Positions 1-61,980 of a stretch of 64,000 nt of DNA are shown here, in pieces. A model generated the notes under the pieces. It searched no databases and was not told the origin of the DNA. It was given only the letters and a program-made list of their open reading frames with translations. Each line of letters opens with the position of its first letter. Position 1 is the first letter of the stretch. The stretch lies in NCBI GenBank assembly GCA_948567375.1, contig OX419759.1:46590593-46654592 (forward strand). The letters are read 5' to 3'. A program made the translations under genes and the position numbers. This DNA comes from Lunularia cruciata. Taxonomy: Eukaryota > Streptophyta > Marchantiopsida > Lunulariales > Lunulariaceae.

Positions 1-473
1 TTGGTGCCGAGTATCTAGAAGAGTGCTTGCCAAAACTTCCCAATAAATCGAGGATCACGGTCGGAGATGAGTACACATGGCATCCCATGATGCTTGAAGA
101 CATTGTCAAAGTAGATTTGCGCTAAGGTTGGAGCATCCACGGTATCACAGGTTGGTGCCAAGTGGATTTGCTTACTAAGCTTATCCACAAACACCATGAT
201 TGCGGTGTGTCCTTGTTTTGTATTTGGAAAAGATGTGATGAGATCCAAGCTTACATGCTCCCAACAAGTGGATGGAAAGGCGAGTGGTTGAAGGAGTCCA
301 CTCGGCTTCTGGTTGCTGGCCTTGTTACGTTGGAAGCTCTCACACAATGGGAAAAATTCTTGAACATCTCGTGTCATGTTGGGCCACCACCATTGACGTT
401 GGAGGGTACCCAAGGTATTGTCCATGCCCATGTGACCAGCGATGGGTAAATAATGGGCTTCTTGAAGGCGCAC
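1..473 (-). pseudogene. Element A integrase (5' part of the domain, cut by the window edge)
   Basis: The frame opens with the zinc-binding N-terminal domain (GHMGMDNTLGTLQRQWWWPN, then a CESF where family members have CxxC, so one cysteine is lost). The catalytic core follows, with the first aspartate in WEHVSLDLI and the second in LISDRDPRF; the catalytic glutamate would lie off the left edge. Integrase joins cDNA ends to the host chromosome. Confidence 0.85.
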
Positions 474-476
474 AAG

Positions 477-2030
477 TCAAAGATCACCTTTAGCTGGAAC
501 ATAGATCCAGTCCTCATGGAATAAAAGGCCCTCCTTGATAGAGAAGGTGTTGTACTCCTTATCGCATGCCGTAAGGCAACCATGTACCATTTGGAAGAAG
601 AGATCTTGGTGTAGAGCTGACTGAAACTCATTTTGGACCTTGGAGTCAACTGACACCGTTGAAATTGGCGCTATGATGAGAAGAAGAGCCTTCAAATCAG
701 GTTGTTGTGATAAAGCATCAGGGATGACATGGAACCAACCTGGTTTGTACTCAAGTTTGATGTCATACAGTTGGAGTTGTTCCGCCCATCGATGATGTTG
801 ATTCTTCATGTGTTCCAAGTGTAAGGTCTGCAACAATGGTTTGTGATCAGCTTGCATGATCACTTGTTTCCCCAAGAGGTAATGCCCCCATACCTTAGTA
901 GCATATACCATTGCAAGTTGTTCTCAATCTTGAGCAAAGTAGTTTTGTTCAGCCGTATTGAGTCAGTGAGACACAAAGGCAATGGGATGGAGTCCATCTG
1001 AGAATTCTTGTTGCAACACGGCTTCGATTGCAAAGTTAGAAGCATCAAAATCAACCACACAAGGTAGTTGAGGATCATATGGTTGAAGAATGGGTCTTGA
1101 AGACACCATATGCTTTAACTTCTGGAATGCTTCTTCATGCTTGGTGGTCCAATGGAAACTCGAGCTCTTTCCCAAGAGGTCAGTCAATGGTGTAGCCACA
1201 TGAGCATAATAATGGATGAATGGTCGGTAAAAACTGGCCAATCCATTGAATGCCCATACTTCTCTAGCATCCTTTGGGGTAGGCCAATCAATAATGGCAT
1301 TGATTTTCTCTTTTTCCATCTTGATCTCCTCTAATGAGATCTTATGACCCAAGAAGGTAACGCCCTTCTGCCAAAAGGCACACTTTGACTTCTTGCAATA
1401 AAATCTCCATTGTTGTAGTCGTCTTAGGACTTCTCGCACATGATTCATGTGTTTTGCCTTTGTCTTACTATAAATTTAGATGTCATCCAAGAACACCACC
1501 ACGGACCAATCCAATAGTCCATCCAACACCCAATGCATCTGATTTATGAAGACTGTTGGAGCATTAGTGAGTTTGAAAGGTAGAACTCTACACTCAAAAT
1601 GCCCATACCTTGAACGAAAGGTAGTCTTTTGCACATCCTCTCTATCAATAGGAATTTTCCAATAGCCACTATGAAGATCCAACTTGGAAAAGTAGCATGC
1701 TCCACTTAGTTGATCAAGCAAGTCATCGATCTGAGGCAAGGGATATGCGTTGTTCACGGTTTGTTTATTGAGCCCACGATAATCAATACAAAAATGAGGT
1801 CCTCCATCCTTCTTTGGAACAAATAGTAACGGTGCTCCCCAAGGAGAGGTACTATGTTGTATGAAGTCCTTCTCCAAAAACTCTGTAAATGTTGTTTGCA
1901 ACTCCTCCAACTCCTTTGGTGAGAGCCAATAGATTGGTCTACTCACTAGAGTACTCCCTTGCAATAACTCAATCTTGAAGGGCATACCTTGATCGGAGGG
2001 TAATCCCTTTGGCAAATCATCCAGAAACAC
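477..2030 (-). pseudogene. Element A reverse transcriptase and RNase H
   Basis: The minus-strand frames 2030-1476, 1448-963 and 911-477 together form one gypsy RT-RNase H. Visible signatures are [41 protein letters not shown] and the catalytic box as VVVFLDDI (YxDD family with F in place of Y). RNase H follows, with CVVDFDASNFAIEAVLQQE and ADHKPLLQTL. A stop codon directly follows LDDI and separate frames are needed after it, so the enzyme is dead. It would copy element RNA into cDNA in a cytoplasmic particle. Confidence 0.9.
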
Positions 2031-4379: not shown

Positions 4380-6090
4380 TGACCTACAAAATCCTCCAAG
4401 ATCTCATCAACAAATGGTAATGGGTAGTAGTCCTTCTTGGTAACAACGTTGAGCTTCTTGTAATCCACACATACCCAAAGCTTACCATTTTTTCTTCAAA
4501 GTCACAATTGAAGACATCCATTCTCCACCTCAAAGATAAATCTAACCTCCTTGAGCTTATCAATCTCCTCCTTCACAACCAAAGTATTGGTGGACTAATG
4601 CAACGTTACTTTTGACGGATTGGTCTTGTATATGACTCCATCTCTATCTTATGCTCCTCCAAGGTGACTTCCTTCAGATCCTTGTAATTGAAAGCAAATA
4701 CATGGATGAACTTGCAAAAAATCTCTTTAAATCTCACCTTCTTCTCCTTGGTAACATTTGGACTATACTTGAGGGTAGATACCCTCCTCTCTATCTCTTC
4801 AAGTGTCAATGGTGATTTATTTGGGCCCTTCAAAACCTCTAGCTTAGGTGAAAGATCCATAACACACAAGGGATACACATCTAAATCAGATTCAGATTCA
4901 TCCTCCTCCATGGAAGTCTCCTCTTCCATGCTTGTGTCCACACCTGAGCTCCTTCTTCAAAATCTGATTCTCAATAATTAGAAGATGGTGTATCTGAATG
5001 TGAAGTGTTGGTGGTGTTAGTCATAGGAACTATGACTCTATGGTTTGATGGCCCAATCCTCAAGTACCCTTTGTGCCATCAATCAGTTGTGCGCGCTACT
5101 CTCAACCATGGCCTCCCAAGAAGTAAGTCATAGCTTGAATCCTTCAAGACTTGGAAAGTCATGAGATTTTGAACTCCCATAGCTGAAACTACCACTTTAT
5201 CCATCACCCCTATTGGTCAAATTTGTTGCTTGTTTGCCATGCTCACCACAAATGTTGAAGGTCTTGACGGTATCATACCCAACTTCTTCATCAACCTTTT
5301 TGACATGGCATTCACTGCTGATCCTCCATCAACCAATGCATCATTGATGTTCTGACCGTTCATTCTCACATCAATCTTGGAGGCATATTCACAAGCCTCC
5401 TATGGTGTTAGCTTGGCATCCACCACCCCCATTGATACTAGAGCTTTTGCCTTCTTCTTCTTCTTGCTCCTTGTAGAACTCAAACCACCTCTAAGCTCCT
5501 TTCTCAAAGTAGGATTCAAAGCAATCAGTTGGCCCACTATGATGTTAGCCTTGTGACTACCAACATCCTCCAAGACATTATAGTTCCATTGTTGCTTTGA
5601 GATCAAGAAGTCCTCCATCTCCAACTTCTTCCTTGGAGTCTTTGTTGTTGATGGTGTTGAAGTACTTGTGCAAGTGCTCCTAGTAGACATAGGAGTATCT
5701 TGGCTAGGAGGAAATCCTTGAAAAGAGTGCACATCCTTTGCAAAATGAGCTCTCTTCTTCTCTTGTGCCAAAATATCCAAATTAAGACCCTTGGACTTTG
5801 AGCACTCTCTCTTCTCATACTTGCTCTAAACCACATCTATACATGCTATTCCCCTTACCTTTATTTGGATTAGGAGCCAATTGGGTTTTACTACCTCCCT
5901 CTTTCCCTCTATTGGCTCCCTCATAATCCCTTCCTCCATGGTAAGTGGAATTTGGGCAATTCTTTTAGATGTGACCTCTTCTTCCACAACCAAACCAATT
6001 TCTCTCATTGAAATTGTTGGTTGATTGGACTCCTCTATATAAATTAGCTTCCATAATTCCTAGGCCCTCTCCACACATTCTGATCCACCT
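4380..6090 (-). pseudogene. Element B (gypsy): zinc knuckle, protease and start of reverse transcriptase
   Basis: On the minus strand from 6008 down I read a knuckle WFGCGRRGHI-KNC (first cysteine lost), then a lysine-rich linker (5400-5780). A protease follows with NDALVDGGSAVNAM at about 5335-5295, where the active site is D-G-G. An acidic frame (4606-4941) follows, then the start of a reverse transcriptase (VVKEEIDKLKEVRFI, WVCVDYKKLNVVTKKDYYPL). It stops at 4380 where the LTR of A begins. Several stops and one frameshift in the reverse transcriptase are visible. Confidence 0.8.
6087..6090. repeat. Target-site duplication, left copy (element C)
   Basis: ACCT here and ACCT at 15706-15709 flank element C (five bases CACCT and AACCT with one mismatch). 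Removing C and one copy restores an open reading across element B's gag (LWEEREVDQNVWRGPRNYGS), which supports the boundary. Confidence 0.65.
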
Positions 6091-6544
6091 TGTCATGCCA
6101 TTTGTAGTGTCACATTTGGATTGCTCAAACATCGGAGTTGTAGTGATAGTAGTTAGAGGTATTTCAACAGTTTCCCATAGACTACTTTCTGATGGTTAGA
6201 TTTTTTGTTTGGAATATTGACTTCATGGTGGGGCCCACAGTCACTTTGCACCATTTGGACCATTGAGTGTGCCATCAACGGGGCTATTAGGGTTTCAGAC
6301 CTAGCTCAAGTCCAAGGGTATACTTTCAAAATGCAGCTCTGGAGAGGTCACTTCTCTAATGTTGAGCCTTCAAGTTCTTGGCTATGGTGGACATAGGCCG
6401 ATGAGCGTCACCTAGATTTTCTTAGCTAGAGTGGGTGTGGCTTGACTGTAATTATTGCCAAGTTGTTGGCAATTTATAGAGTGATAGATCAAGTACTGAT
6501 TTGAGTTGAGTTGATTTGAGAGTTGTAAATAATCTGATTACATT
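6091..6544 (+). repeat. Left terminal repeat L of element C
   Basis: It begins TGTCATGCC and ends GATTACA. It aligns over its length with 15150-15599 and with about 56424-56862. The roughly 107-bp block X that surrounds the right-hand L is missing both before and after this one. The landmark phrase TTCTTGGCTATGGTGGAC occurs near its 3' end in the left and right copies, and in the third as TTTTTGGCTATGGTGGAC. Confidence 0.8.
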
Positions 6545-7780
6545 TAAGAAGTGAAGTTAGGGGGAAATCGGGTGTAGGAATTGAGAGTGTTGGTGGTATC
6601 TCTAAGAATCACTGATTGTTGATAGCTTGATCAGAGCTCAGGTTTTCCCTAGTGTGCAGAAGCTCATTCAATTGATGTAAATTTGGTAGCTCGATCGGAG
6701 CTCAAGTTTTTCCTAGTGTGCAGAAGCTTATTCAATTGATGCAGATTTGGCATATTAGGCAGATGTGGAGGAGTGTTGCCACATTTTGGAGGAGGTTTGA
6801 AGTTGCAAATTTTGGCCAGAGTTGGTGGAGTTTTTGGCAAATTTGGAAGAGGTTTGAAGTGGTAAGAAGAAAGGCCTCATTTGGCTGAATTTGGGCATTT
6901 AGAGGCTTTGAGACATTGGGCTGTGGGGTATGAGAGGCTACAAAGGCCTAGAAGGGCCAACAAGCCAACTTGCTGGCGTGAGGCTAGCTAGTTTAGAGTA
7001 GATCTCGATCATTGTTTGACAAAATCTGCCCATCTTGCTAGATTGTGCACAACAACATTTTACTCCTAGATCTCTTGTTCTTAGACTGGTGCCCTAGCCA
7101 ATTGGTCCACCCTCACTTGTTGTCCTAGTGATTGGCCCATTTTTATCTATACACTTGTAGCTTTAGCTAAGAGAGGCAATTTGATCCCATTCTTGGTGAT
7201 CTTGGTAGCTTAGGACATAGATACAAACTCCTCTTATGTCAAATGCCAAATGGTGATAGAGTCAATCCCGTGTTGCTCTATGAGATGGAAGGTTTTTGTT
7301 AAGATTTCTTGTGATTGGACTCCCTCCATTCCCTACTTCTTGTTTGTGCACCATTTTTGTATGAGGTGCCTTGACTTTTGAGCATTGGTGCTCTAGTGCA
7401 CTCTTGGTAGTGAGGCTAGAGTGATGACTAGTCAGACTACCTTTGTTTCTCTCCGGTGAAACAGGAAGTGATGATCTACAAACCATGAGATTGCATTTTT
7501 TGATGATAGGTTACAAGTTGCCCTTTCTCCTAGATTAGTTATCTCAATTAGAGTTACATTAATGGGTGGTGTTCCGTGGGTAATGGCACTTGGTGGTGCT
7601 CAGTTGGTGTTGACAGTTGGTGGGGTACTTGTAGTTGCAGTTTGTGGTTTCAATTTGTGGTTGCAGTTGTGGTTATTTATCATAACAAAGTTCTTTGGGG
7701 ATTCCAGAGGAGTTAACCCTGCAGTACGTGGTGGGTTTACTCGGAGTGGTGCTTGGTATTAGCCTGTATCTCAAGTCCCA
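6545..7780 (+). other. Untranslated leader of element C
   Basis: No convincing coding frame is seen. The leader recurs in the copy at 56.9-58.2 kb. It holds GGTGGTATCTCTAAG near 6590, a weak match to a Met-tRNA primer binding site, and an internal direct repeat (TAGCTTGATCAGAGCTCAGG and a near copy about 66 bp later). The true primer binding site is unclear. Confidence 0.6.
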
Positions 7781-8970
7781 ATGAGAGAGGAGATTGACTC
7801 TGAGTTGGAGTTTGATACAAGAGCTGATTCAATTGAGAGTGCACTTGGCGTGTCCGCACCATTGTTGTGGGACATGGATGAGATTTATGGAGCCAAAGGC
7901 CCTAAGCGTTACTCTGGTATAGTGAGTACCATTGAGTTGGATAACTTCACCTAGGAGTTTGATAGTTGCTGTGATCTTCAGCAAATGTGGAATCCGACTT
8001 TGTTTATACACTTTTGGCATGGAAGGGGTTGTTTCAACATTTAGAGGGTATGCCGATGGACAACTACCATGAGTTTAGGAGAGCTCATTTGGAGGAGATT
8101 GAGTTATGGAGACAATATTGGTCTTTGAACTATGTCTCCATCACTTCAGGCTTGGTTGCTAAGAGTAGATCGACTGTATCCACAAGTTCTAGCTCGAGTA
8201 GCGTTGGTAGAGCTAATAGAGATGCACTAGTTAGAGATATAGTGCTGCCACGAGTGGAGGTACCATTGTAAGAGGTGGTGTGGTATCAGGGTTTAGCCCC
8301 ATGGTGGAGTTCTTCTAGTGTTTGAGGTAGAACTACCAAGGAGTGTAGACTAACAAGCTAAGGAGCTTGCAAGAGTTCCAACAGAAGGCTAGAGAGAGCC
8401 TATGCAAAGCATACACTCCCATGAGGCGGCTGATCAGTTTCACTCAAGGAGTTATTGAGGCCTAGGCAGTCCAACTTTGGTATGGGATACTAGACAGGGA
8501 GTTACGATGTAGAGTTTGTGATGCTACATTGTTACATGCTACTTCACCCACTTTGGCAGTGGTCTTTAGTTTGGCTGAGCATATTGAGCTCAACATAGTG
8601 GAGGAGAGGGTAATGACATCTAGATTTGGTAAAGAGACCTCATCCACAATTGTTACTTCTTCTAGAGTGCAACATAATGCACCACGTCCAGTTAGTTTTT
8701 TTGAGGACAGGGTGGACAACCCAAATCCTATGGAGCGAGTGGAAGGCCTAGTGGAGCTAGACCCTTACCTTCATTTTCAAGTCAACAACAACCAGTGAGT
8801 GGTAGTGTTGCTTGTTGGACTTGTGGTGGATCTCACCATAGGAGAGAGTGTACTTAGGGCAGTGAACCTGATACCCCTAGTGCATCATAGCTAACATAGA
8901 GGCAATATGAGTATTGCTATAGATTTGGTCACACTAGTGACCGATGCTTTGACCTACACCTAGAGTTACA
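7781..8970 (+). pseudogene. Element C gag with two zinc knuckles
   Basis: The frame from ATG at 7781 reads MREEIDSELEFDTRADSIES and continues with stops to about 8800. Two tandem knuckles follow: CWTCGGSHHRREC and YEYCYRFGHTSDRC (first cysteine replaced by tyrosine). The same gag, degenerate too, is present at 58281-59088. Gag would package the element RNA; two knuckles instead of one is a mild peculiarity. Confidence 0.75.
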
Positions 8971-9819
8971 GAGTGGTAGGGCTGCTATGGTAAGGTTGTA
9001 GAGGAGCTCCAGTTCATGGAGGACGAGGTGGTAGAGGTGGTGGTAGAGGATCTACACCTAGTAGAGGTGTGGTACTTGCCCCTACTTCTGATATAGATAT
9101 GGCTACTTGGATTGAGTAGTTAGAGCAGAGATTGGCTAGTATGGCCGTTGCTTAGAGGAGATCAGATTTGGGTGTTGAGGCTTCCACCTCATATGATGGT
9201 GATAGAGATGCTTTGGACTTCATGTGCGGGGCAACACAGGTGGATGCATCTGTAGCAATGACTAGGAGCAAAATACATGCTCTAGAGCCTAGAGGATCAT
9301 CAATGCAGTTGGACCCATAGAGAAGAGAGGTTGGGAGACATGTCAGACTTCCCCAGTCTTTCATGCTATCTGAGGCATTATTGACAACATCCATGGCTCC
9401 TAGACGTCCTAGTGTAGGTGTGGTAGGTGGTGATGGAGTGCATGACAACTACCTACTAGTTAGCCACTTGCTACTATACAGATTGAGTCTAGTATGATGT
9501 TGGGGGCAGCTCAGCTGATTATATGGTGCCCTTTGTTTTCAACCAGTGATATGTTTACATTGGAAGTTGACCTAGTCTTGGTGTTCTGGTTGGCTGCCAT
9601 GCTTTGTGAGAGTAGGGATGATGCGGTTCCTACTACTAAAGTAGAGGTGGTTGAAAGTGGAGTTGACTTGGTTGAGGAGCATGGGATCCGTTCAACGACC
9701 ACTGGTTTATGGCAAGTAGCAGCGGTTAGACTAGAGGAGTTGCCGGCTAGACCGGCCTTTGAGAGAGCACGATTTACATCGAGTGTTGTCCTATTGGATA
9801 AGTAGAGGGGGGTTTTTGT

Positions 9820-10175
9820 TTGGTGGGACCTTCAGGGAGGGTCTATATACCACAGAAAGTCTTGTTAGACTCTGGTGCCCAGCCCCTTATGTTGGGGAAG
9901 GCTGTAGTAGTCGCTTTGGAGTTACAGAAGACCAATGTGGAGAGGTGTCCATTTCAAATCCAGACATCTCTAGGTGGTGGTTTGACATAATACATCACAC
10001 GTGGGGAGCTTGTTGTCCAGGTTCAGCTTGGTCATCCAATTGATAACTTGGTGGTGAGAGCTCAAGCTATTGCAACAATAACTGAGTCATACAATGTGCT
10101 AGTTGGAGGAGCAATGTTATACCCCATGGGTTTCAACATTGATTATTGGGAGGAGATAGTCTTCTATAGACCAGT
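9820..10175 (+). pseudogene. Element C aspartic protease
   Basis: A plus-strand frame reads VYIPQKVLLDSGAQPLMLGK, with the canonical D-S-G-A active site, followed by VVVALELQK and, after a stop, ELVVQVQLGHPIDNLVVRAQ and then VLVGGAMLYPMGF. This is the normal layout of a retropepsin with its second hydrophobic-hydrophobic-glycine segment. It lies just before the methyltransferase. Stops interrupt it. Confidence 0.75.
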
Positions 10176-10499
10176 TTGGCAATCTGGTGAGGGACATGTA
10201 TGTCACTTACCTGTCACTTACTAGTACGCTTTAGTAGTGGCAGTCTTGGGGCACTACAGTTTGAGACCATGGCATCATCAATTTCAGCTTTCAATGGTGC
10301 AGTTACTTGGCTTGGTGACTTGTTGGAGTGGAACGCCCATGTAGAGGATACTCCGGTACCAGAGGAGATCACTCGGATTTGGAGTACAAGTGGGATTGTT
10401 CCATCCACCTTGGATGTTCCATTGTGGAGTTCAAAGGAGGCATTGCAACACCATGCAGATCAGTTGGTGCAATAGGCTTGGAGTGGAGCTTTCATACCA

Positions 10500-11460
10500 T
10501 CAAGAGATGAGTGTGAGGATGAGCCTCTAGAGTTGATTACTTTGACACCTCTGGATACCACACTCATTGCTTGGCAAGATCTAGTAGAGAAGATATGTCT
10601 ATTAGAGTTGTTTGGTGGGATTAGCATTGGACTAGTTGCAAGCGGGTATATGAGTACAGAGGTACTTGTATGTAGAGAGAGATGAGACTGCTAGGTGAGT
10701 CTCTCTACATCATGTGGCACACTTGGCCTATCAATATCTTGAGTTTTTACCAATGTTAGCAATCAAAGGTTACCAAAAGGCCCTACTAGCAAATATTTCC
10801 TTATTGGGGGCACATGATCTGGAGAGATATAGGCCTATTCACTTGGTGATTTCTAGATAGCCATGTCAAGGACATACACATGCTGGCTAAAGTTTGGGTC
10901 TTTAGGATCCTTGTTCTAGTGTGTTTTGGGAGATGTTACGGATACTATGACATCTCTAGGTTCATCAAGCCGCTTCTCCAGCTTACCTTTTGGAGAACGT
11001 ACCTTTGATGGGTGATTCTTGTACCAAAGTGGTGGCGAGTACACATCAGGTCCATTCTTGGATGGGACTTGCTATATTGTTAGATGTAGCTAGAGTAGGA
11101 TCACGAGCTCATCATCTTTGTCTTTGGTGGACAGACCTCTTATCCAAAGAAGTTACTTATGGCAATGGTGAACCTAGTTGGATAGCCTAGAGCCGCATTT
11201 CCCACACTCATGAGTTTCCTAGGCTCTCATGCTTTTTGAGAGGGGGGACCTGGACTTGTTTGGGACTCATAGTTACAACAGTTGGTGGAGCCCAACGCTG
11301 ATGAGAGAGAGTAGGCAATGGTTTTTTGCACAAATATTAGCACAGTTCTAGTAGTGTTAGAGGCATCCAAGCATCAGGTGTTAGATCAGGCTATGGACCT
11401 GAATTTTTTAACCTAGATTGTGAGCCTTGGCTTGGCAGAGTAGCGTAAGATGCGCTTGAT
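10500..11460 (+). pseudogene. C5-cytosine DNA methyltransferase domain carried by element C
   Basis: Motifs occur in the order of this enzyme family. Motif I (SAM binding) is ICLLELFGGISIGLVASG at about 10593-10646. Motif IV with the catalytic cysteine is VISR-stop-PCQGHTHAG, with PCQ at 10861-10869. Motif VI is LLENVPLMG near 10987-11013. Motif VIII is GSRAHHLCLWWTDL at 11098-11139. A final segment reads LVEPNADERE and then QVLDQAMDLNFLT at about 11375-11413, resembling motifs IX-X. Frame changes between motifs I and IV and again before X, plus stops, kill this copy. The enzyme would transfer a methyl group from SAM to cytosine C5. It lies between protease and reverse transcriptase. Confidence 0.82.
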
Positions 11461-11929
11461 AGGCATCACCACTCAAACACTTGTGAGCCCTATGCCTATC
11501 AAGATGATTCAAGCACATGTTGGGGGCGATGGACTGAGTGGACATGGTATTCTTTGGACACAACCAGTAGCTACTAGGGAGAGTGGTCTACTTGGAGTCC
11601 ATCCAAGTGAGTGTGGGCTTCTTGGATTACACCCTTGGCCCACTTGGGATGCAATTAGAGGATGTGTGGAGCTTGCATCCAGAGTAGAGGGAGTTTTTCA
11701 CACAGAGGTTGGGACTCTAGTGGTTGGGGGCATGACACTACTGCTCCCAAGGGCTCAGTGTAGCAGCTAGTCAGTATGTCTTCCACTCTTGCGACAGTTA
11801 CAAAGGATACTTGGGTGCAAGATCTTGGACCCAAGCTTATAGGAGAGGAAAGATGGAGGGTTTGGAGGTTCTTGAGGAGCTACACGAGTTGTTTTGCCTT
11901 CAATATGAAGGATATGGGTGCTTTGAAGG

Positions 11930-13290
11930 GACTTGGTATATGGATTGAGCTAACTAGCGATACACTAGGATTTTGACGTCCTTATCAATATAGTGATATG
12001 GAGAGGACATTGATTCAAAGCCGGAGTAGTGACCTTTTTGAGGTTGGTTTGGTGGAGATTTCACATGGAGAGTATGCATAAGCAATAGTGATGCTAGCCA
12101 AGAAGGATATGCATGGCAACTATACATATAGGCAGATGTGTGGAGATTACTATCCTATCAACCAATAGACTAGGGCTGATCGGTATGCCATGCCTACACC
12201 TAAGGAGATTTTTTATGCGATTGGGTATGCAAAGGTCTTCAATACTTTGGATCTTTGAGTGAGACATCATCAGTTGACGATCAGAGAGGAGGACAAGTCC
12301 AAGACAACATTTTGGGCTATTGATCCTCATAGCAAAGATGTGCTATATCAATGGAGGTTCTTACTATTTGGGTTAAAGAATTCTCTTGTTGAGTTCCAGA
12401 GGGTCATGGATAGGATCCTATCTAGATTGGATTTTACTTGGTGCTATATTGATGACATTTTGGTCTATAGCACTATTATGGAGGAGCATGAGAGACAATT
12501 GTTGGAGGTGTTTGAGAGGTTGAGATCTCATAGACTCAAATTACATCTTAGGAAGTGTAAGTTCTTCCATGAGCAGGTTGAGTATTTGGGTCACACTATC
12601 TACCTTGGAGGAGTTGGTGTTCAACAGACCAAGGTGGAGGCAATTGCAAGTATTCCTTGGCCTATAGATGTAAGTAGAGTGTGAACATTCCTTGGGTTGG
12701 CAAACTTCTATTGCCGCTATGTTAGAGGATTTAGTTCCATTGCCAAGGCCTTGACAAAGCTGACCAAGCTTACATAGGAGTGGTGTTGGGGAGATGAGCA
12801 AGAGAGAGCTTTTGTAGAGCTCAAGGAGAGGTTGATATTTGCTCCTATTTTGAGGAGACCAATCAAAGGATGACCATTTCAGGTTCACATTGATTGGAGT
12901 ATGTTGGGGCTTGGAGCAATGCTCACCCAACATGATGATGAGGAGAAGGATTTTATGGTGGCCTATGCTAATCGCTCCAACAATTTAGTGGAGGCAAAGT
13001 ATAGTTCATATGAGAGAGAGTGTTTGGCAACCTTTTGGGCAATAGCACATTTCTAATGTTACCTATTTGATAACCCCTTCACTCTCATCACTAATCATCA
13101 GCCACTGAAGTGGTTGATGGATTCCAACAAGCTTTCAAGAAAGCTTGCACGATGGGCTTTGATTTTACAAGAGTATGATTTCATGGTTATTCACATACTT
13201 GGAGTGGTGAATCGTGATGCAGATGGGTTGAGTAGAAACCCATGTCCCAGCCAGCAGGATCAAACCAGAGCACGTTGATATGGTGAGAAA
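11930..13290 (+). pseudogene. Element C reverse transcriptase and RNase H
   Basis: The sequence reads RPYQYSDMERTLIQS, MLAKKDMHGNYTYRQMCGDY, RYAMPTPKEIFYAIG, KTTFWAIDPHSKD, LYQWRFLLFGLKNSLVEFQR and the catalytic CYIDDILVYS (YIDD at 12445-12456). RNase H follows: FLGLANFYCRYVRGFSS, FQVHIDWSMLGLGAML, YSSYERECLATFWAI and NHQPLKWLMDS. Stops at about 12169, 12256 and 12682 and elsewhere break it. Catalytic aspartates of the YIDD box are kept. Confidence 0.9.
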
Positions 13291-13299
13291 AATGAGGAG

Positions 13300-14460
13300 A
13301 TGGTGCCAGGTTGGCATGCATCTGCCTTCCTTTGTATATTTTTTGAGGTTTTGGTGGTATCTCTCTCAATGCATACAAGAGGAGTTATTGAGGTCACAAA
13401 TCCAAAGAGTGGAGATATTTTTATGGTTCAGCGAGACATTCATGGTGACGTCTTAGTGATGGACTATCTTTGCACTAGTGTTGTGGGTAGCACAATTGGG
13501 GCCAAGGAGAGAGACCATGTGCTTCAGCAAGCTAGACAATTTACATTGGAGGGCAGATACCTTGTGCATGTATGGGAGGATGGTAGAGTGCGAGTAGTAC
13601 CACTTCCATCTAAAAGACCACAGTTAGTCTGTCATGCTCATGAGGAGCTAGGACATTTTGGATTAAAGCATACATATAGCTTACTCCAGAGTCATTATTG
13701 GTGGTGCGCTATGCAGACCAAGGTATAGCAATTTATTGCCAGATGTGTGGTTTGTGACCAAGTTAGAGCATCATTCAATGCTCTTATGCCACAGTTACAC
13801 CCATTACCTATCATGGGATTGGGTTACCGTTGGAGTTTGGACTTTGTTGGACCTTTATTGTTGATTGTGAGACATTATTGGTATATTTTGGTGATGGTGG
13901 AGCACTTCTCCAAGTGGATTGCGTTGGTGGCACTTCCTAACAAGTCTAGTGAAAGGAGAGCTTATTCGTTCCTAGATCAAGTTTTTAGTCATTTTGGTGC
14001 ACCAGTTGAGGTTTTGACTGATCAAGGTATAGAGTTCTTGGGGGAGTTTAGGTCTTGTGAAATAAGGCTTTGAGTGATTATCTTACTACCTCCCAAGACC
14101 ACCCTGAGGCAGATGGCTTAGTAGAGAGAGTGGTTCAGACGGTGAAGAGAGGATTGCAAAAGTATGGTTTGCAAAGAGGCTACTTGGCAGATTAGGATCT
14201 CTAGTTACCTTGGTTGGGCAAGGGCTATTGGTTCAGCTGGCAACCCTCCTTAGCATCCTTCTCTCCTTACTTCCTACTCTATGGGCGAGATCCAAATTTA
14301 CATGTAGCCATTTGTCAAGATGCTACTAGAGTTTTAGACTTAGATGATCTAGATGTATGGATGAGCGCATGTTCTCAACAGGGAGAGATCTTTCAAAGAG
14401 TGATGCCAATGGCCTTAGAGAACTTGGCGATTGCTCAACATAGAGATACCTTATGATATG
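13300..14460 (+). pseudogene. Element C DDE integrase
   Basis: An HHCC zinc domain is complete (HEELGHFGLKH ... CVVCDQ). The core shows the first catalytic Asp in RWSLDFVGP, the second in VLTDQGIEF and the glutamate in HPEADGLVERVVQTVK. The C-terminal part reads SPYFLLYGRDPNL. A stop after MQTKV and a frameshift near 14070 break it. Finding all DDE residues rules out a tyrosine-recombinase (DIRS/PAT/Ngaro) element despite the split terminal repeats. Confidence 0.88.
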
Positions 14461-14639
14461 CTACCATTCAAGGAGGAGGTTATAGACCCTTAATCCATTG
14501 ATTTCATCCAGGTGACTATGTATATCTACAGTAGACAGCACCGACGACACTTGATGTTTTGACATGCCGCACTATCTTGAGAATGGGTGAGGTTTTGCCA
14601 TCTAGAGTCCTTGTGTTAGAGGACATGATGGTGTTGTTT

Positions 14640-14875
14640 GGAAGGATCATGTGTGCAATTGTGCGCCATGCCACCTCCTAGACATTGATGGTACTACGGA
14701 CCCAAGTTTTGCACTTGTACGTGCAAGCTTGAGGTGTATATTATGTGGCTCTTCTGGTGGAGCTGTTTCTATGTTAGTGTGTGATAGCTATTTGAGAGAA
14801 TGGCATATGGCATGTATGACTCCTCCTTTCATGGTGGTTCCTCAAGGACAGTGGTTATGTCCTAGATGTACTTGA
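14640..14875 (+). pseudogene. PHD-like zinc finger at the end of element C pol
   Basis: After the integrase the frame reads CNCAPCHLLDIDGTTDPS and then a finger from 14735 to 14869: CILC, VCDSY, EWHMAC, VPQGQWLCPRC. Spacing and the conserved W before the last CxxC match a PHD finger (C4HC3), but the cysteine after VCD is a tyrosine here. PHD fingers bind histone H3 tails. In many plant gypsy elements a chromodomain sits in this place; none is visible here. The frame ends at TGA, 14873-14875. Confidence 0.75.
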
Positions 14876-15030
14876 CCTATAACTAGTCATTCTTTATATG
14901 GTATAGATTGCATACAAGTGACTAACAATTGGCTCCATAACACCCAACCTTCTGATTGTTGCCCATCATAGGGTATACCATATACTTGAAGTAGATGGCT
15001 ATCTGGAGTTAGAGGGACCTAACCGCCAAC

Positions 15031-15042
15031 TAAGGGGGCGAT
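15031..15042 (+). other. Polypurine tract of element C
   Basis: TAAGGGGGCGAT lies just before TGTGGCAC at 15043. A G/A run directly before a TG is the usual plus-strand primer of LTR elements, so reverse transcription should place the U3 start at block X, not at L. Confidence 0.6.
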
Positions 15043-15149
15043 TGTGGCACTTTAGAGTCTATGTATGACTTATGTGTGAGTTGTGCTTCTATAGTGTATG
15101 ATGTTGACAACAATGTATGTTGTTTAGTGATGTATATACGCAAAACAAC
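15043..15149 (+). repeat. Block X, first copy (element C)
   Basis: The block begins TGTGGCACTTTAGAGTC and ends ACGCAAAACAAC. It is repeated with a few differences at 15601-15707. Both copies border the right-hand L; neither is found beside the left L. Confidence 0.8.
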
Positions 15150-15599
15150 TGTCACACCATTTGTAGTATCGCATTTAGATTTCTCGAACACTAGAGTTGC
15201 AATGATAGTAGTTAGAGGTATTTCAGTAGTTTCCTGTAGACTACTTTTTGACGGTCAAATTTTGTGTTTGGTGTACTGATTTCATGGTGGAGCACACCAT
15301 CACTTTGCACCATTCACACCATCAAGTGTGCCATCAATGGGACTGTTAGGATTTCAGACCTAGCTCGAGTCCAGGGGTATACTTTTGAAGTGCAGCTCCA
15401 GAGAGCTCACTTCTTTGATGTTGAGCCTTTGAGTTCTTGGCTATGGTGGACAAAAGCCGGTGAGCGTCACCTAAATTATCTTAGCTAGAGTTGGTGTGGC
15501 TTGATTGTAATCAATGCCTAGTTGTTGGCAGTTTATAGAGTGACAGATCAAGTACTACCTTGAGTTGAGTTGTTTCAAGAGTTATAAAGAATTTGATTA
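15150..15599 (+). repeat. Right terminal repeat L of element C
   Basis: It starts TGTCACACCATTTG and ends TTTGATTA. It aligns with 6091-6544 throughout, with scattered substitutions. The final CA of GATTACA is missing, and a single T joins it to the second block X. Confidence 0.85.
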
Positions 15600-15600
15600 T

Positions 15601-15705
15601 TGTGGCCCTTTAGAGTCTATGTATGACTTATGTGTGAGCTGTGCTACTATAGTGTATGATGTTGACAGTGATTTATGTTGTGTAGCAATGTATATATGCA
15701 TGACA
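15601..15705 (+). repeat. Block X, second copy, ending in TGACA (element C terminus)
   Basis: It matches 15043-15147 and ends GCATGACA, directly followed by the ACCT target duplication. TGACA is the inverted complement of the left terminus TGTCA. Confidence 0.8.
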
Positions 15706-15709
15706 ACCT
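15706..15709. repeat. Target-site duplication, right copy (element C)
   Basis: ACCT, matching 6087-6090. Sequence beyond it resumes the minus-strand gag of element B. Confidence 0.65.
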
Positions 15710-53441: not shown

Positions 53442-55446
53442 TCAAAATTTATTAAAAATGACCGTTTCTAAAGCTGGAAAAATGATTTGATAGAAGCTTG
53501 CTTCATACCTCTCCAACTTGGTGATGCTTTGGTCCTTTGCAAGACATTTTTGGAGCAGGTGAAGAGCCTGATGCAGATCATTATTGACAGAAAATTTAGA
53601 TGAGTATGATGATGAAGGCGCCGAACAGGATATAAAATTTTGCACGGCTTTGACTCCTATAAGAGCAGTCTCGATTGAGACGAGATCCGCAATATCGTCA
53701 TCATCATCAGAATCAGCAGGTGGTATCAGGTTGCCAGACGAGATCGGAACACTCTCAATGATCCAATCTCATCAATTTCCGAACTGCTTGTGGGTTCATC
53801 CTTGTTGAAGTCGATCAGTTCCGACACGTCTCCCGTAATACCAAGCGAGTCCGCCAAGACTTCATGCATTTGAACAGATGACATCATATTAACTAGATCA
53901 ACAACAACATCGTCTTTTTCGTTGAAGGCTGGAGCAAAGCGAGCAATATCATTGTTGGAATTTGTAGCACTATCCAACGATAGGACATTCGCCTAGAAGC
54001 ATCGTCGGATGGTGTTTTCAGAAATGTTATCGTGGGTCTCCTGAAGCCAGTGAAGAACATTTCGCATATGTGTGTGTTGGTGAATTGGAAAATGACTCAT
54101 GGGCATCTCCTCACGTGAGCATTGCCACAGCTCGTATTCACTGAGTAGTGAGCAAAGCATCACCTTGCGATACCCTACCTTTAGTGAGCAAATGATCCCT
54201 TGATCTAGTGGTTGGCAGTCGCTCATCGCGTTCGGTGGGAAAAATAGGATCATAATCACTTTGAAGGTGAATGATGTCTATGCGGAACCTGTTGTGTCCA
54301 ACACTTTTGCTGCAAAGACGTGTGAGCTACAATTGTCAAGTCAAATGTAGAAATGTGTTTGCCTTCTTAACGCTTCCCAATTGATTCTATGGAAGAGGCG
54401 CAGCATGGAAGATTCGTCTTGCCACGCCTTGGCCTGATTGTTGTAAACAATGTTGAATGTTTTGTTGATGTCTATGCCTTTAAGAGTGCGAGGCTGTTTT
54501 GATGTCCCAATCACCTGAACGGTTAGTTTTTCACCTACTGCGCTCACGCTTGGGGTGACTGTAATGTGATCTTTGTATCGCTTTACTCCTCGACCATCAT
54601 TATTAATGGTCACATATGATCGTGAAGACGTGGTGTGATGCTGTGACGTCAATATTCCAAATATCTTTCAATGGTATGCTTTCCAAACAATGGAAAATAT
54701 CAGCAAGCCGCCTGTCAATGGTTGTTGTGTCTGTTGAGTTATGCTCACGGCAACGTCTCTTGCTGGTAGTCCCTTTACAAGCGAGAAAGTTTTGAAGCCA
54801 TCCATTTGACGCCTTGAAGGAGACCAAATACTCCTTAAGCATGAGAGTAAGTCCACTCTCATATTTGCTCAGTATTTTATCTCAAAATTCTAGAGCCTTG
54901 GCCTTAAGCATGAGAGTAAGGCCACCCTCATATTTGCTCAATATTTTATCTTGAAATTCTAGAGCCTTGCACTCAAAATTCTAGAGCCTTGGCCTTAAGC
55001 ATGAGAATAAGGCCACCCTCATATTTGCTCAGTATTTTATCTTGAAATTCTAGAGCCTTGGCCTAAAGAACCTCTCTGGTGACGTTGAGATCGGGTGCAT
55101 CAATCTCAACTTGAACATGCCATTGATGCAGCATATTTTTGAGAGTTTCTTAGCCAGATGTCCTCATGCTCTTTTTGGATCTGCTAATTGCAGACTTCTC
55201 GATCTCGGCCTTGATTAGTTCAGATTTTTTCATGATGATGTTCACCATGGGCCGCGACACTCTGAATTGAAGAGCAGCTTTGACCTGGGACTTCCCAGCT
55301 TTGATGAAATTAATCACATTCAGCTTCTGACTTAGACTCATCCTCGCCCTACTTTTGCTCTTCTTACTGGAGTTCGTCATCGATTTTGATTCTACTATAG
55401 GAGTGCAATGCTTTATGAAATGTATATTCTCGTAGGGTCCCCTCAC
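53442..55446 (-). pseudogene. pogo/Tigger transposase
   Basis: The N-terminus is a CENP-B-type helix-turn-helix (RARMSLSQKLNVINFIKAGK, then QFRVSRPMVNIIMKK). A second DNA-binding part reads SFKASNGWLQNF. Catalytic core: DIWNIDVTA (family usually NxDE), VGEKLTVQVIGTSKQP, LDNCSSH (second Asp) and PPNAMSDCQPLDQGII (third Asp region). A tail rich in Asp and Ser follows (53726-53977). Stops separate the frames, for example after the N-terminal domain and before LDNCSSH. The enzyme would cut and paste the element. Confidence 0.88.
54834..55062. repeat. Triplicated segment inside the pogo transposase gene
   Basis: Three copies begin at CTTAAGC, positions 54834, 54903 and 54994, each continuing ATGAGA(G/A)TAAG and CTCATATTTGCTCA. 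The first step is 69 bp (23 codons, in frame). The second is 91 bp because of an extra duplicated 22-bp piece. The repeat covers the second helix-turn-helix region (LAKALEFQDKILSKYEGG). Confidence 0.9.
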
Positions 55447-55473
55447 AACAGGGCAACATTAGTTTTCCCTCAC

Positions 55474-55600
55474 ATACGATGTCACATAGAGTCGTACTTG
55501 CTATAGTGACACCCTCGATATACTGACACCTAGATCATACGATGTCACATAGAGTCGTACTTGCTATAGTGACACCCTCGATATAATGACACCTAGATGC
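55474..55600. repeat. 63-bp tandem duplication near the right end of the pogo element
   Basis: ATACGATGTCACATAGAG occurs at 55474 and 55537, each followed by CTATAGTGACACCCTCGATA. Each unit carries copies of the terminal word. Confidence 0.9.
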
Positions 55601-58280: not shown

Positions 58281-59088
58281 GTGAGGGAAGATTGACTTTG
58301 ATTTGGAGTTTAATACAAGAGTTGATTTAGTTGAGAAAGCACTTGATGTGTACACACAATTGTTGCAGGATATGAATAAGGTTTATGAGACCTCCAAAAG
58401 CCCCATATGCTACTTTGGTTCAATAAGTACCATTAAGTTCATCCAAGAGTTTGATAGTTGGTGTGAATTGCAACAAATGCAAAACCTGACTTGGTTCACA
58501 CCCTTCAAGGCATAGAAGAGGTTATTCTAACACTTGGAAGATCTACCAATGGATTACTATCATGAGTTTAAGAGAGTTCTCTTGGAAGAGATCAAGCTAT
58601 GGAGACAATATTTGTCTCCAAACTAGACCTCCATCACTTTAGGCTTGGTTTCTAAGGGTAGATCTACCATATCCACGAGTTCTAGCTCTAATAGCATTGG
58701 TGTATCCAATGGAGGTGCACTAGTTGGAGATGGTGCTATTATGAGTGGAGGTACTACTGTAAGAGGTAGTGCAGTACCAAGGTTTAACCTCATGATGGAG
58801 TTCTTCCAATGTTTGAGGTAGAACTACTAGGGAGTGCGGACTGACAAGCTTAGGAGCTCATAGGGGTTCTAGCAAAAGGCAAGAGAGAGCCTACAGAAGG
58901 TAAACACTTGCATGAAATGGCTTATTAGTTTTACTCAAGGAGTTACTAAGGCCTAGGTAGTCCTATTTTGGTATAGTATCCTAGACAAGGAGTTGCAATG
59001 TAGAATTTGTGATGCTATATTATTATAGGCTACCTCACCTACTTTGGTGATCATCTTTACTTTGGTTGAGCATATTGAGCTCAGTATT
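58281..59088 (+). pseudogene. Gag remnant, second family C copy
   Basis: FDLEFNTRVDLVEKALDVY-like reading matches the start of element C gag (LEFDTRADSIESALGV). Frameshifted and truncated before the zinc knuckles. Confidence 0.7.
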
Positions 59089-61980
59089 TTACCCACATTT
59101 TTCATTTTTGATGAGTTTTAAAGAAGAAGTGTATTGTTGAAGCCAAATTGTAGCTTAATGAAGAAGAAAAGAGGAGAATTGTATCTTTGGTATAGACCCA
59201 AAGAAGTTGACCTCAAGTCAATGTTTAGGAGGACTCGTGTTGGACTTATGAAATATAGACCCAAAGTAAAATTTCTTTGCATCTAGATGCGCAACCCAAG
59301 CCGAAGAACTTGTAACAACTTTTCCATGGGTTTAGTGAACCAAGAAAGTATGGATAAAGAAAATGGCTACTTTGGTGAGTGAAGACATTGAGAGCAAAAA
59401 AAAGAAAAAGATAGGAAAAATCCATGTATCAATTGAGGATCAATTGAAGAATGACTACATAGAAAAATTGTATAAGGTTAATATTTTTCAAAGCAACTCT
59501 TAAATGTCAAAGAAATATCATGTTCCTCTTAGTAGTTGTCCCAAAGGAATGAAAATTGAGATACCTTACAAGAGTGAAGTTTCCAATGGCCCGAGGGTGT
59601 TAGAATCACACATCTAGGAGAGAAGATAGTGTTCCTAAGAGTTCATGAGCACACAATGCCACCCAAGAGTAGTAAGCAACATTAAGTGAGGAGTCTTGCA
59701 ATTTGCAGATTAGATGTAGTAGCAAGGATCAAAGTCTTGAGTAGATTTTGTATCACCTTTTGGGCATGGAACTAGAATTTGAGCTTTCTAGGATTCATGG
59801 CAAAAATTGCTGATAGCAATTGCAAAGAAAATCACAAGACAGAAGAGAAGAGAGGAAATCTGGCCCGATGGACTAAGTTGGATTGGAGATTGGTCTTGGG
59901 TAGAGAGGCGAGAGAGATAGGAGGAATCACCTTATACTAGAAGTGTGATTCTACGGAGGAGACCACAAAGGTAAGGAGCTTGTTCAATGAGCCTTGCACT
60001 AAGAATGGGTATAAGGTGGATAGTTATAAAGACCCGATACAAAGGGTATCATTAGTGCTATGATGGCCATGTTTAAGCTAGAATTAACCACCTATGTGAC
60101 AAAGGAATAGGCGGTGTTCTTTCACCAAATATTTTTAGGAGAAGCGGTGAATTGGGCATAGTGTTTTCACTAAAGGGTAGGTCAGATGATGAATAGTTGG
60201 AGAATGGACTTGCCACCCCATTATTTTGTACCTTTTGCAGCCCATTTTTATTTTGGACTGAACCTACTTAACTTGGAGGAGATAGAAAGGATAGTTTCAC
60301 ACTTCATCTCAATTTATGATGAGTATTAGATGAGGAGGAACAATACTACATATGTCAAGTCCATGAAGGTGAAAAATACTTTGTAGAGATAAGAAGATAG
60401 AAGATAATGTTGGTGAGTGCTTTGAGGCTGGGAAGCGGGGAAGACCCGAAGGAAGAGTGTTGTCAGTTTAGCCAAGAAAGACAAGGAGATTGAGTCCAAG
60501 CCAGAGATAGTGGTCACTTTGCAAAGTAAGGAGTCTAACAGTGAGAGTGAGGGAGAACCCAAAGTTCAGCAATTGGTGGAAGAAGGGGAAAAAATAGATG
60601 ACAAGAATTCCATGCACAGATTGAACACATGGAAGGAGGAGATAGTCAATATGTGGAGCTGGTCAATGTAGATGTTCTAGAAGGAGAAGAAGAAGAGCCA
60701 ATCTTGGTGGTTCCAAGAGGAGCAAGATCAAAGAAGAGTTTGCCAATTGTAGGACCTGGACCAAGTAAAGCCAAAGAGGAAGGAGAGAGCTTGGAAGAGA
60801 TGATTCTAAAGGTAAAAAAATTGAGACTTTGGGGTAAAGCACCAATAGAAAAAATGCGGATTGAAGCCAAGTACAAAGACAATGAAGATATAAAAGACTT
60901 GGGTGAAGTAGCCTATTTGTTGAGGAAAATCTAAGCATTGGTGTTAGAGTTGAAGAAGAAGAAGAAGAAGAAGAAGAAGAAGAAGGAGGAATTGAAAAAT
61001 TACATCCTGAATTGAAGGATAAACTGCAAGTGGTGAAGTATTTGAGTGAATAGACTTGAGAATTGAAGAAGAAGTTGAGCCAAGGAGAGTTTGAAGCTGA
61101 AGAACTTTGAGTTGATATAGTTCTTGGAAGAAGAGTTTTAATAACTTGCAGGAGAGTTTCTTGAAGCACAATGAAGAGCTTGAACAACAAACATCAGAAT
61201 TGAAGGAGTAGAATGCATCATTCAAGAAGATGAAGGGTGAATTTGCTAATGCAAGGTTGGAACTTATACCCTCAAAAGCAACGATGGTGGTGACGGAGCA
61301 AGAGCTAGAGAGTTTAAAATTAAGTGCAGAGGAGAAGGATCAAGCATGGCAGCTGGAGCTGATTGTTAGACATCAAGAGGAAGACATGTTGCAAGGTTTG
61401 ATCAGAAGTGTGGAAGCTCAACTAGTCTAGTACATGGAGGAATAGAGAAGCATTGAAAGCAGAATTTGAGGATGATTTGAAGATGTATTGGAATGAATTG
61501 GAAGTGGAGTGAAGTAAGAAAATTCCAAGAAGTGCGGTAGATCCAATAGAAGAAATCATTACAAGGGTGAAGGCGATGCTGAGTACTAAAGCTAAGGTAA
61601 AGTTGGAGCAAGATTGCATGAGTTAAAGTTTTTAGTGCAAGAGATGAGGAAGAGGAAAGCAAAAGACATGGACTTGAATAGATTATTGATTTGCTTGAGG
61701 GAGAGAGTAGATTGGAAAATGATTGAGGTAGGAGACAGTGTTTGTCTCAAATTAGATCTTGTGAAGTCAGAATTAGATGAGCTTTGTGGTACTATAAGGA
61801 AAGAAACTTGATGTGAAGTTTCAGAAGTAGGAGTGCAAGTGTCTTCAGGTGAGTTACCTAAGGCATTAGAAGAGATTGGGTTAGAGAATAAGAATGTAGA
61901 TAGATTAGTTATAACCTCAATTTTAGTTAAGATTGAAAGGGTGATAGAAGTAACAAAAGACTTAGTAGTAGATAGATAGA
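59089..61980 (+). pseudogene. Unrecognised coiled-coil-coding stretch upstream of an LTR
   Basis: Plus-strand frames such as 60629-60934, 61230-61430 and 61614-61811 are rich in Glu, Lys and Leu, for example EEMILKVKKLRLWGKAPIE, and look like coiled coil. Upstream near 60060-60300 another frame reads FHQIFLGEAVNWA and PHYFVPFAAHFYFGLNLLNL. Stops are frequent. I do not recognise the family. It precedes the promoter-like part of the next gypsy element in the same orientation, so it may belong to a long LTR or to the 3' end of an adjoining element. Confidence 0.4.
60952..60985. repeat. GAA microsatellite
   Basis: About eleven GAA units in the coiled-coil frame, coding for poly-lysine or glutamate depending on frame. 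Confidence 0.95.

Follow-up and report, generated by a model that had tools for sequence, protein, structure and literature searches.

A gypsy-type retrotransposon family with a DNMT3-class cytosine methyltransferase domain, split direct repeats and a PHD finger in the liverwort Lunularia cruciata

We have analysed a 64,000-nucleotide stretch of the genome of the liverwort Lunularia cruciata (the window; positions 46,590,593 to 46,654,592 of contig OX419759.1, our C8, in a 566-Mb genome of 74 contigs) and find at window positions 6091-15705 a decayed copy of a large family of gypsy-type retrotransposons that carry a C5-cytosine DNA methyltransferase (DNMT) domain. The domain order, as established from the window copy together with other family copies, is Gag, protease, DNMT, UAG, reverse transcriptase (RT), RNase H, integrase and PHD finger. 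The protease, RT, RNase H and integrase order of Ty3/gypsy pol is thus present, with the methyltransferase inserted between protease and RT. An initial annotation of the window had as its central claim that such a methyltransferase-bearing gypsy element lies here, and this is confirmed. Features absent from that annotation are split direct repeats, a conserved UAG codon (11761-11763) and the PHD finger (14723-14872). We put at about even (a probability of roughly 0.5) the reading that this is a gypsy-type pol family with a captured DNMT3-class enzyme that is made in excess on the Gag side and methylates the element's cDNA, with the PHD finger acting as a tether.

The window methyltransferase domain is broken and occupies 10548-11455 on the forward strand. 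A three-frame reading identifies the motifs ELFGGISIGL, PCQGHT, LLENV, RAHHLCLWWTDL and QAMDLN at approximately 10608-11405, followed by the RT. The motifs therefore sit where the initial annotation placed them, between protease and RT, and the range of 10500-11460 that it gave for the domain is right. The window segment matches residues 1-31, 33-205 and 242-340 of the 340-residue DNMT piece of a less decayed family copy, L043, at 79-84% identity (E=2.5e-121). This homology over the domain rules out a chance assortment of motifs. The proposal of a gypsy-type element with a C5-cytosine methyltransferase in a plant genome is supported. The profile search suggested as a check gave a divided answer: one window piece, with X at the stops, matches PF00145 (E=1.9e-4) at 21.4 bits, which is slightly below the Pfam cut-off of 22, and the piece containing motif I is not matched by this profile. 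For pieces of copies L008 and L007 the scores are 36.1 and 37.6 bits, respectively. As had been noted, the window copy is dead, with stops, frame breaks and the loss of ~36 DNMT codons near 11154.

By profile score the domain is closest in sequence to DNMT3 among the C5-methyltransferases. The domain of one copy, compared with PDB sequences, has DNMT3A as its nearest solved structure (E=2.1e-8), followed by DNMT3B (1.6e-6), HaeIII (4e-4), HhaI (0.0094) and DRM2 (0.088). With a 17-row profile the DNMT3A match improves to 8.5e-22 and 80.8 bits, ahead of chain 4onj ('DNA methyltransferase', 52.1), DRM2 (47.4), the tRNA C38 enzyme (35.4), HaeIII (34.0), HhaI (29.7) and DNMT1 (15.9). The motif order I-IV-VI-VIII-X is unrearranged, unlike that of DRM, and is kept in other copies, one motif I residue differing in copy L006. 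A pattern scan of 32 rows, which missed or mis-picked motifs in some of them, found motif IV in 26, and the catalytic Cys is present in every one of these. The motif reads mostly GWPCQ in the bryophyte-type rows, GWECQ, GFECQ, GWSCQ or GWDCC in Closterium and the algal-type rows, and SSPCQ in two further rows.

This motif variation bears on whether the domain might do something other than methylate DNA, for instance bind or methylate the element's RNA, or act within the Gag precursor as a folded spacer. The deviation of the Closterium and algal relatives from PC at motif IV would fit such a role, as would the location of the domain on the Gag side of the stop, and RNA methylation has been raised for a LINE-type enzyme (PMC5890265). 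However, the catalytic Cys is retained wherever the motif IV pattern was found, and the profile favours DNMT3 over the tRNA enzyme DNMT2 by 80.8 to 35.4 bits. We consider a non-DNA role improbable.

The genome also contains host-type methyltransferase exons, one DNMT3-like (L001), one DRM-like (L002) and one of a further C5 type (L003); a fourth, L004, is probably DNMT3-like as judged by eye, the PDB comparison having covered L001 and L002. Recent capture of the genome's own DNMT3 gene was considered and rejected, since exon L001 shares just 36% identity over 42 amino acids with the element domain.

A genome search with PF00145, in which the best candidates only were scored, gave 123 scored matches, mostly to profile positions ~48-120 and with open frames of up to 1428 amino acids. 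The methyltransferase lies upstream of the RT in 29 of the 30 loci nearest to the window RT (L009-L038, L009 being the window), and so in 28 of the 29 others; these loci are the best-scoring of 150 scored places and not a random sample. The exception, L019/L044, is an RT fragment that has no gag, protease or DNMT and adjoins another gypsy piece. Copies lacking the segment had been named as an outcome that would refute the initial annotation; with this fragment as the one such case, the refutation fails, and a chimera limited to a single copy is ruled out. As four loci (L039, L040, L041 and L043) coincide with others (L020, L023, L035 and L034, respectively), the 38 loci compared below represent 34 distinct copies. 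Elsewhere in the window there is a lone, degenerate, family-related gag (58336-59130, forward strand; 57% to the L043 gag), behind which no protease, DNMT or RT of the family was found.

DNMT and RT share one reading frame, which is unchanged across the single UAG that separates them. In the window this UAG (11761-11763) is followed by CAGCUA, the whole spanning 11761-11769 on the forward strand, and the hexamer fits CAR-YYA. Family alignment shows TAG at this boundary in 38 of 38 aligned loci, or all 34 distinct copies, window included (the fragment L019/L044 did not align at the site), with CAR-YYA directly after it in 34 of 38 rows and 30 of 34 distinct copies. At other codons, stops recur in at most 17 of 33 copies (C half of the DNMT domain) and 12 of 31 copies (RT). 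The recurrent stop in the C half, at codon 97, either marks a subfamily or lies at a mutation hot spot. A UAG with CAR-YYA behind it conforms to the sequence rule for a type I stop, that of tobacco mosaic virus (TMV)-like readthrough; PMC2754532 describes the hexamer as essential for TMV readthrough and gives 32% readthrough for the TMV segment as measured in plants. With a readthrough signal placed after the DNMT, the methyltransferase is expected in Gag-like excess. Alternatively, RT, integrase and PHD finger might be produced by splicing around the stop or by a restart behind it, and the gene models P0078 and P0083 (Marchantia) and P0087 (Sphagnum), which are predictions, do skip the site. 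The undisturbed frame and the prevalence of CAR-YYA count against this, and we regard it as unlikely. The Marchantia proteins P0070 and P0072 terminate just past the domain.

The other domains of the window element, all on the forward strand, were located by tblastn with protein pieces of L043. Gag (7838-8645) and zinc knuckles (8699-8992) are both broken and match at 75-80% identity. The aspartic protease region (9728-10277; three-frame reading and L043 homology) contains LLDSGAQP near 9868. Downstream of the UAG, homology to L043 defines the RT at 11764-12663 (PF00078, 2.9e-22 on 12259-12684), the RNase H region at 12664-13314, the integrase with H2C2, core and C-terminal parts at 13315-14722 (PF17921, 2.8e-9 on 13300-13728), and the PHD finger that closes the pol frame at 14723-14872 (PF00628, 1.7e-8, 34.8 bits). 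One zinc-ligand position of the window PHD finger is changed relative to L043. Proteins P0089-P0091 likewise carry integrase and PHD finger. The leader of the window copy contains a 64-nt tandem duplication (6619-6746).

The ends of the element have the form of split direct repeats, A1-int-B1-A2-B2, in which A1 corresponds to A2 and B1 to B2. In the window, A1 (~449 nt) begins with TG at the 5' end (6091-6540) with no B beside it, and at the 3' end a G-rich polypurine-like tract (15032-15040) adjoins B1 (15041-15149), followed by A2 (15150-15598) and B2 (15599-15705), the last ending in CA; all lie on the forward strand. B is 109 nt long and B1 is 88% identical to B2. B was looked for at the 5' end in 13 copies and found in none. 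The element thus has A alone at one end and B-A-B at the other, where the Ty3/gypsy definition calls for two full-length long terminal repeats. Its insertion is nonetheless of the integrase type. The window copy is flanked by the duplication ACCT (6087-6090 and 15706-15709), and TG...CA ends with perfect 4-bp target duplications are present in 11 of 11 readable insertions among the 13 copies, as expected for a DDE-type integrase. The two unreadable copies are L040, whose 3' end is masked, and L061, in which A was not found at the 5' end; the 4-bp duplication of L042, TCTT, is obtained with its first B2 taken as the end. Pfam matches of the scanned pieces, which cover part of the element, include the integrase H2C2 and no recombinase, the tyrosine type being characteristic of DIRS/PAT elements. 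The B1|A2 junction is a palindrome, GACA-GC-TGTC. We infer that exactly A-int-B-A-B would result if a product of the form B-A-int-B-A were joined at its ends and then opened at a single B|A junction. Counts of exact junctions in the genome, which are lower bounds for family size, are 828 for A|leader, 959 for A|B, 546 for B|A and 1386 for the A terminus, against reversed-pattern controls of 0 each.

From this organization we propose the following life cycle for the family. Most ribosomes would stop at the UAG, leaving Gag-PR-DNMT (PR, protease) in excess, so that the methyltransferase would enter the particle together with Gag, and readthrough would supply the rarer RT-IN-PHD (IN, integrase). 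The methyltransferase would then methylate the element's own double-stranded cDNA, in the particle or the pre-integration complex and probably at CG, such that new insertions would arrive already marked and quiet, with either the cDNA protected or the host spared. The PHD finger may tether the integrase to histone H3 tails, by analogy with the supposed role of the chromodomain in chromoviruses, and the exact ends would be rebuilt from the internal B1-A2 junction before the integrase acts. That the DNMT is active and methylates the element itself is, like readthrough of the UAG, predicted from sequence. In favour of this reading are the retention of the domain in the RT-nearest copies, its match to DNMT3A, the preserved motif order, the conserved UAG with CAR-YYA, the Marchantia proteins P0070 and P0072 that terminate past the domain, the target duplications, and the CG methylation carried out by dinoflagellate DNMT3 domains in yeast (PMC5890265).

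Several observations weigh against this reading, beginning with that dependence of the readthrough step on sequence. A search for a tRNA primer site with 20 of the 62 tRNA matches, a set with no initiator Met by its labels, found none, the best agreement being 6 contiguous bases. The Gypsy-Dnmt3 enzyme of Klebsormidium nitens showed no activity in yeast, a result that its authors call inconclusive (PMC5890265). The PHD finger has a high median ratio of nonsynonymous to synonymous substitution (dN/dS) of 0.84, from 3 pairs only (4/4 stop-free copies). Counting decayed copies as well brings dN/dS in the C half of the DNMT domain to 0.52 (525 pairs), above the RT value of 0.42 (431 pairs), so that constraint on the DNMT is not stronger than on the RT; the N half has 0.28 (35 pairs). 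On the side of the reading, stop-free distinct copies give medians of 0.26 for the N half (6/9 copies, 15 pairs) and 0.35 for the C half (5/33, 10 pairs), against 0.39 for the RT (6/30, 11 pairs), 0.49 for the protease (6/8, 15 pairs), 0.50 for the integrase (4/4, 6 pairs) and 0.11 for gag (3/5, 2 pairs). All these values omit the window copy and pairs with dS of 0.02 or less. Overall, the DNMT domain is constrained about as much as the rest of pol.

The decay of the copies likewise does not favour self-methylation. C-to-T changes were counted at 7660 sites chosen for agreement between L043 and no fewer than three of four further copies. The window copy has them at 121 of 351 CG, 199 of 702 CHG and 173 of 2743 CHH sites, the kind of footprint that plant-type methylation is expected to leave. 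The control, a gypsy family (L065-L078) taken from the left edge of the window, lacks a DNMT match at all 14 of its 14 loci, the positive control being found, and shows the same CG and CHG decay: its rates are 0.229 at CG, 0.170 at CHG and 0.056 at CHH (91 pairs), those of the DNMT family 0.179, 0.134 and 0.033 (406 pairs). Given the same order of decay in a family that lacks the domain, the footprint is neither for nor against self-methylation and points to host silencing; self-silencing, hiding and target marking are not distinguished by it. At that left edge lies the member of the control family in the window, a second gypsy element (15-2030, reverse strand) with RT, RNase H and integrase pieces; this family too is large, with 150 scored places. 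The window insertion is an old one relative to other copies, with a Kimura two-parameter distance between A1 and A2 of 0.178 (52 transitions, 13 transversions) compared with 0.011-0.057 in 11 other copies. No clock was applied to these values, and the lower ones imply activity of the family well after the window copy was inserted.

The decay data also bear on the idea that the methyltransferase acts on the host as a counter-defence, shifting methylation or competing with the silencing enzymes so that the element is transcribed. An excess of free Gag-PR-DNMT product, as the UAG predicts, would serve this purpose, and effects on the host epigenome are discussed in PMC5890265. Against it, the window copy and the family show the usual CG and CHG decay, and hence no long-run escape from silencing, with the same pattern in the control family; such a role seems doubtful to us. 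Least probable is that the domain is a useless passenger, captured once in an ancestor and kept by chance, as the C-half dN/dS of up to 0.52 with decayed copies might suggest, for it persists in bryophyte, Closterium and algal-type elements and in nearly all RT-nearest copies here, at a dN/dS of 0.26-0.35 in stop-free copies.

That elements should carry the class of enzyme that silences them is a puzzle for which dinoflagellate elements and one charophyte provide the precedents (PMC5890265). Relatives in Marchantia, Riccia, Calypogeia and Sphagnum extend the range to bryophytes, and as Marchantia is a laboratory plant, experiments can address directly why such an element would methylate DNA. 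From the UAG follow definite expectations for dose and packaging, and the split repeats with target duplications raise the separate question of how the ends are rebuilt for the integrase. More tentatively, and with less confidence than in the reading itself, we suggest that these elements may constitute a distinct green-plant lineage, from algae to bryophytes, in which packaged, near-stoichiometric Gag-PR-DNMT pre-methylates the cDNA, the integrase bears a PHD finger, and a circularly permuted split-repeat cDNA is inserted by a DDE integrase. If so, a single mobile element would carry both a writer and a reader of chromatin, over a range that extends from green algae to bryophytes.

The window also contains a host-gene exon with the TRAPPC8 C-terminal Ig-like domain (PF24542; 31070-31771, reverse strand) and short tandem repeats of 91 nt (54812-55062) and 63 nt (55473-55598).

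Relatives at ~45-73% identity are found, among the matches listed, in Marchantia polymorpha, M. paleacea, Riccia sorocarpa, Calypogeia fissa and Sphagnum species, with Closterium sp. NIES-54 at 44% and protein P0164, labelled Chrzof1 and taken as the chlorophyte Chromochloris, at 37%. No K. nitens protein was among the matches listed, which for one search were the best 120 of 421. In viral_contigs and genome_contigs, none of 43 and none of 23 pattern stretches, respectively, was confirmed as a relative. A tree of 32 rows, comprising retrotransposon-type domains only, rooted at the midpoint, with long branches and with the M. paleacea and Riccia rows dropped as too short, unites the window genome and the other bryophyte rows in one clade (99/94). 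Within it the Sphagnum rows (P0012, P0087, P0108) nest beside Marchantia inside the liverwort rows, which may reflect several old lineages or transfer between hosts.

Algal-type elements are represented by P0088-P0091, P0164 and P0165. Like the window element, P0088-P0091 and P0164 have RT, RNase H, integrase, PHD finger and a related methyltransferase, and the RT, integrase and C-terminus of P0091 match it at 34-38%. In P0090 and P0091, however, the methyltransferase follows RNase H and precedes integrase, and in the tree it falls in a clade of its own (100/99). The occurrence of the domain at two positions in related elements implies that it moved or was captured twice.

The algal and dinoflagellate precedent mentioned in the initial annotation is real, in the form of K. 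nitens Gypsy-Dnmt3 and elements of dinoflagellates (PMC5890265). SymbioDIRS-Dnmt3 and SymbioLINE-Dnmt of Symbiodinium resemble the present family in having captured a cytosine methyltransferase, and differ in being DIRS and LINE elements rather than gypsy (PMC5890265). Dinoflagellate retrotransposon DNMT3 domains carry out de novo CG methylation in yeast, the SymbioDIRS type being active there, and the charophyte acquisition is called independent by the authors (PMC5890265). Closest is KnitGypsy-Dnmt3, a DNMT3-bearing Gypsy element that shares with the window family an unrearranged DNMT3-type domain in the Gypsy pol frame, repeats described as DIRS-like and purifying selection on the domain (PMC5890265). 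The window family is set apart by its bryophyte-range relatives, hundreds of copies, UAG with CAR-YYA, PHD finger and 4-bp target duplications; this comparison is by description and not by sequence, and the text of PMC5890265 does not mention a PHD finger. The open-access literature searched, beyond which a report may exist, contained no report of DNMT-bearing elements in bryophytes, and the bryophyte range, readthrough-type stop, PHD finger and integrase-type insertion of a split-repeat element are additions that were not found in that literature.

Two further groups can be compared. DIRS/PAT elements have split direct repeats of the form A-int-B-A-B and are not known to make target duplications; the window family shares the split repeats, but has a DDE-type integrase, TG...CA ends and target duplications. 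Chromoviruses, like the window family, have a Gypsy pol whose integrase bears a chromatin-reader domain at its C-terminus; in the window family this domain is a PHD finger instead of a chromodomain.
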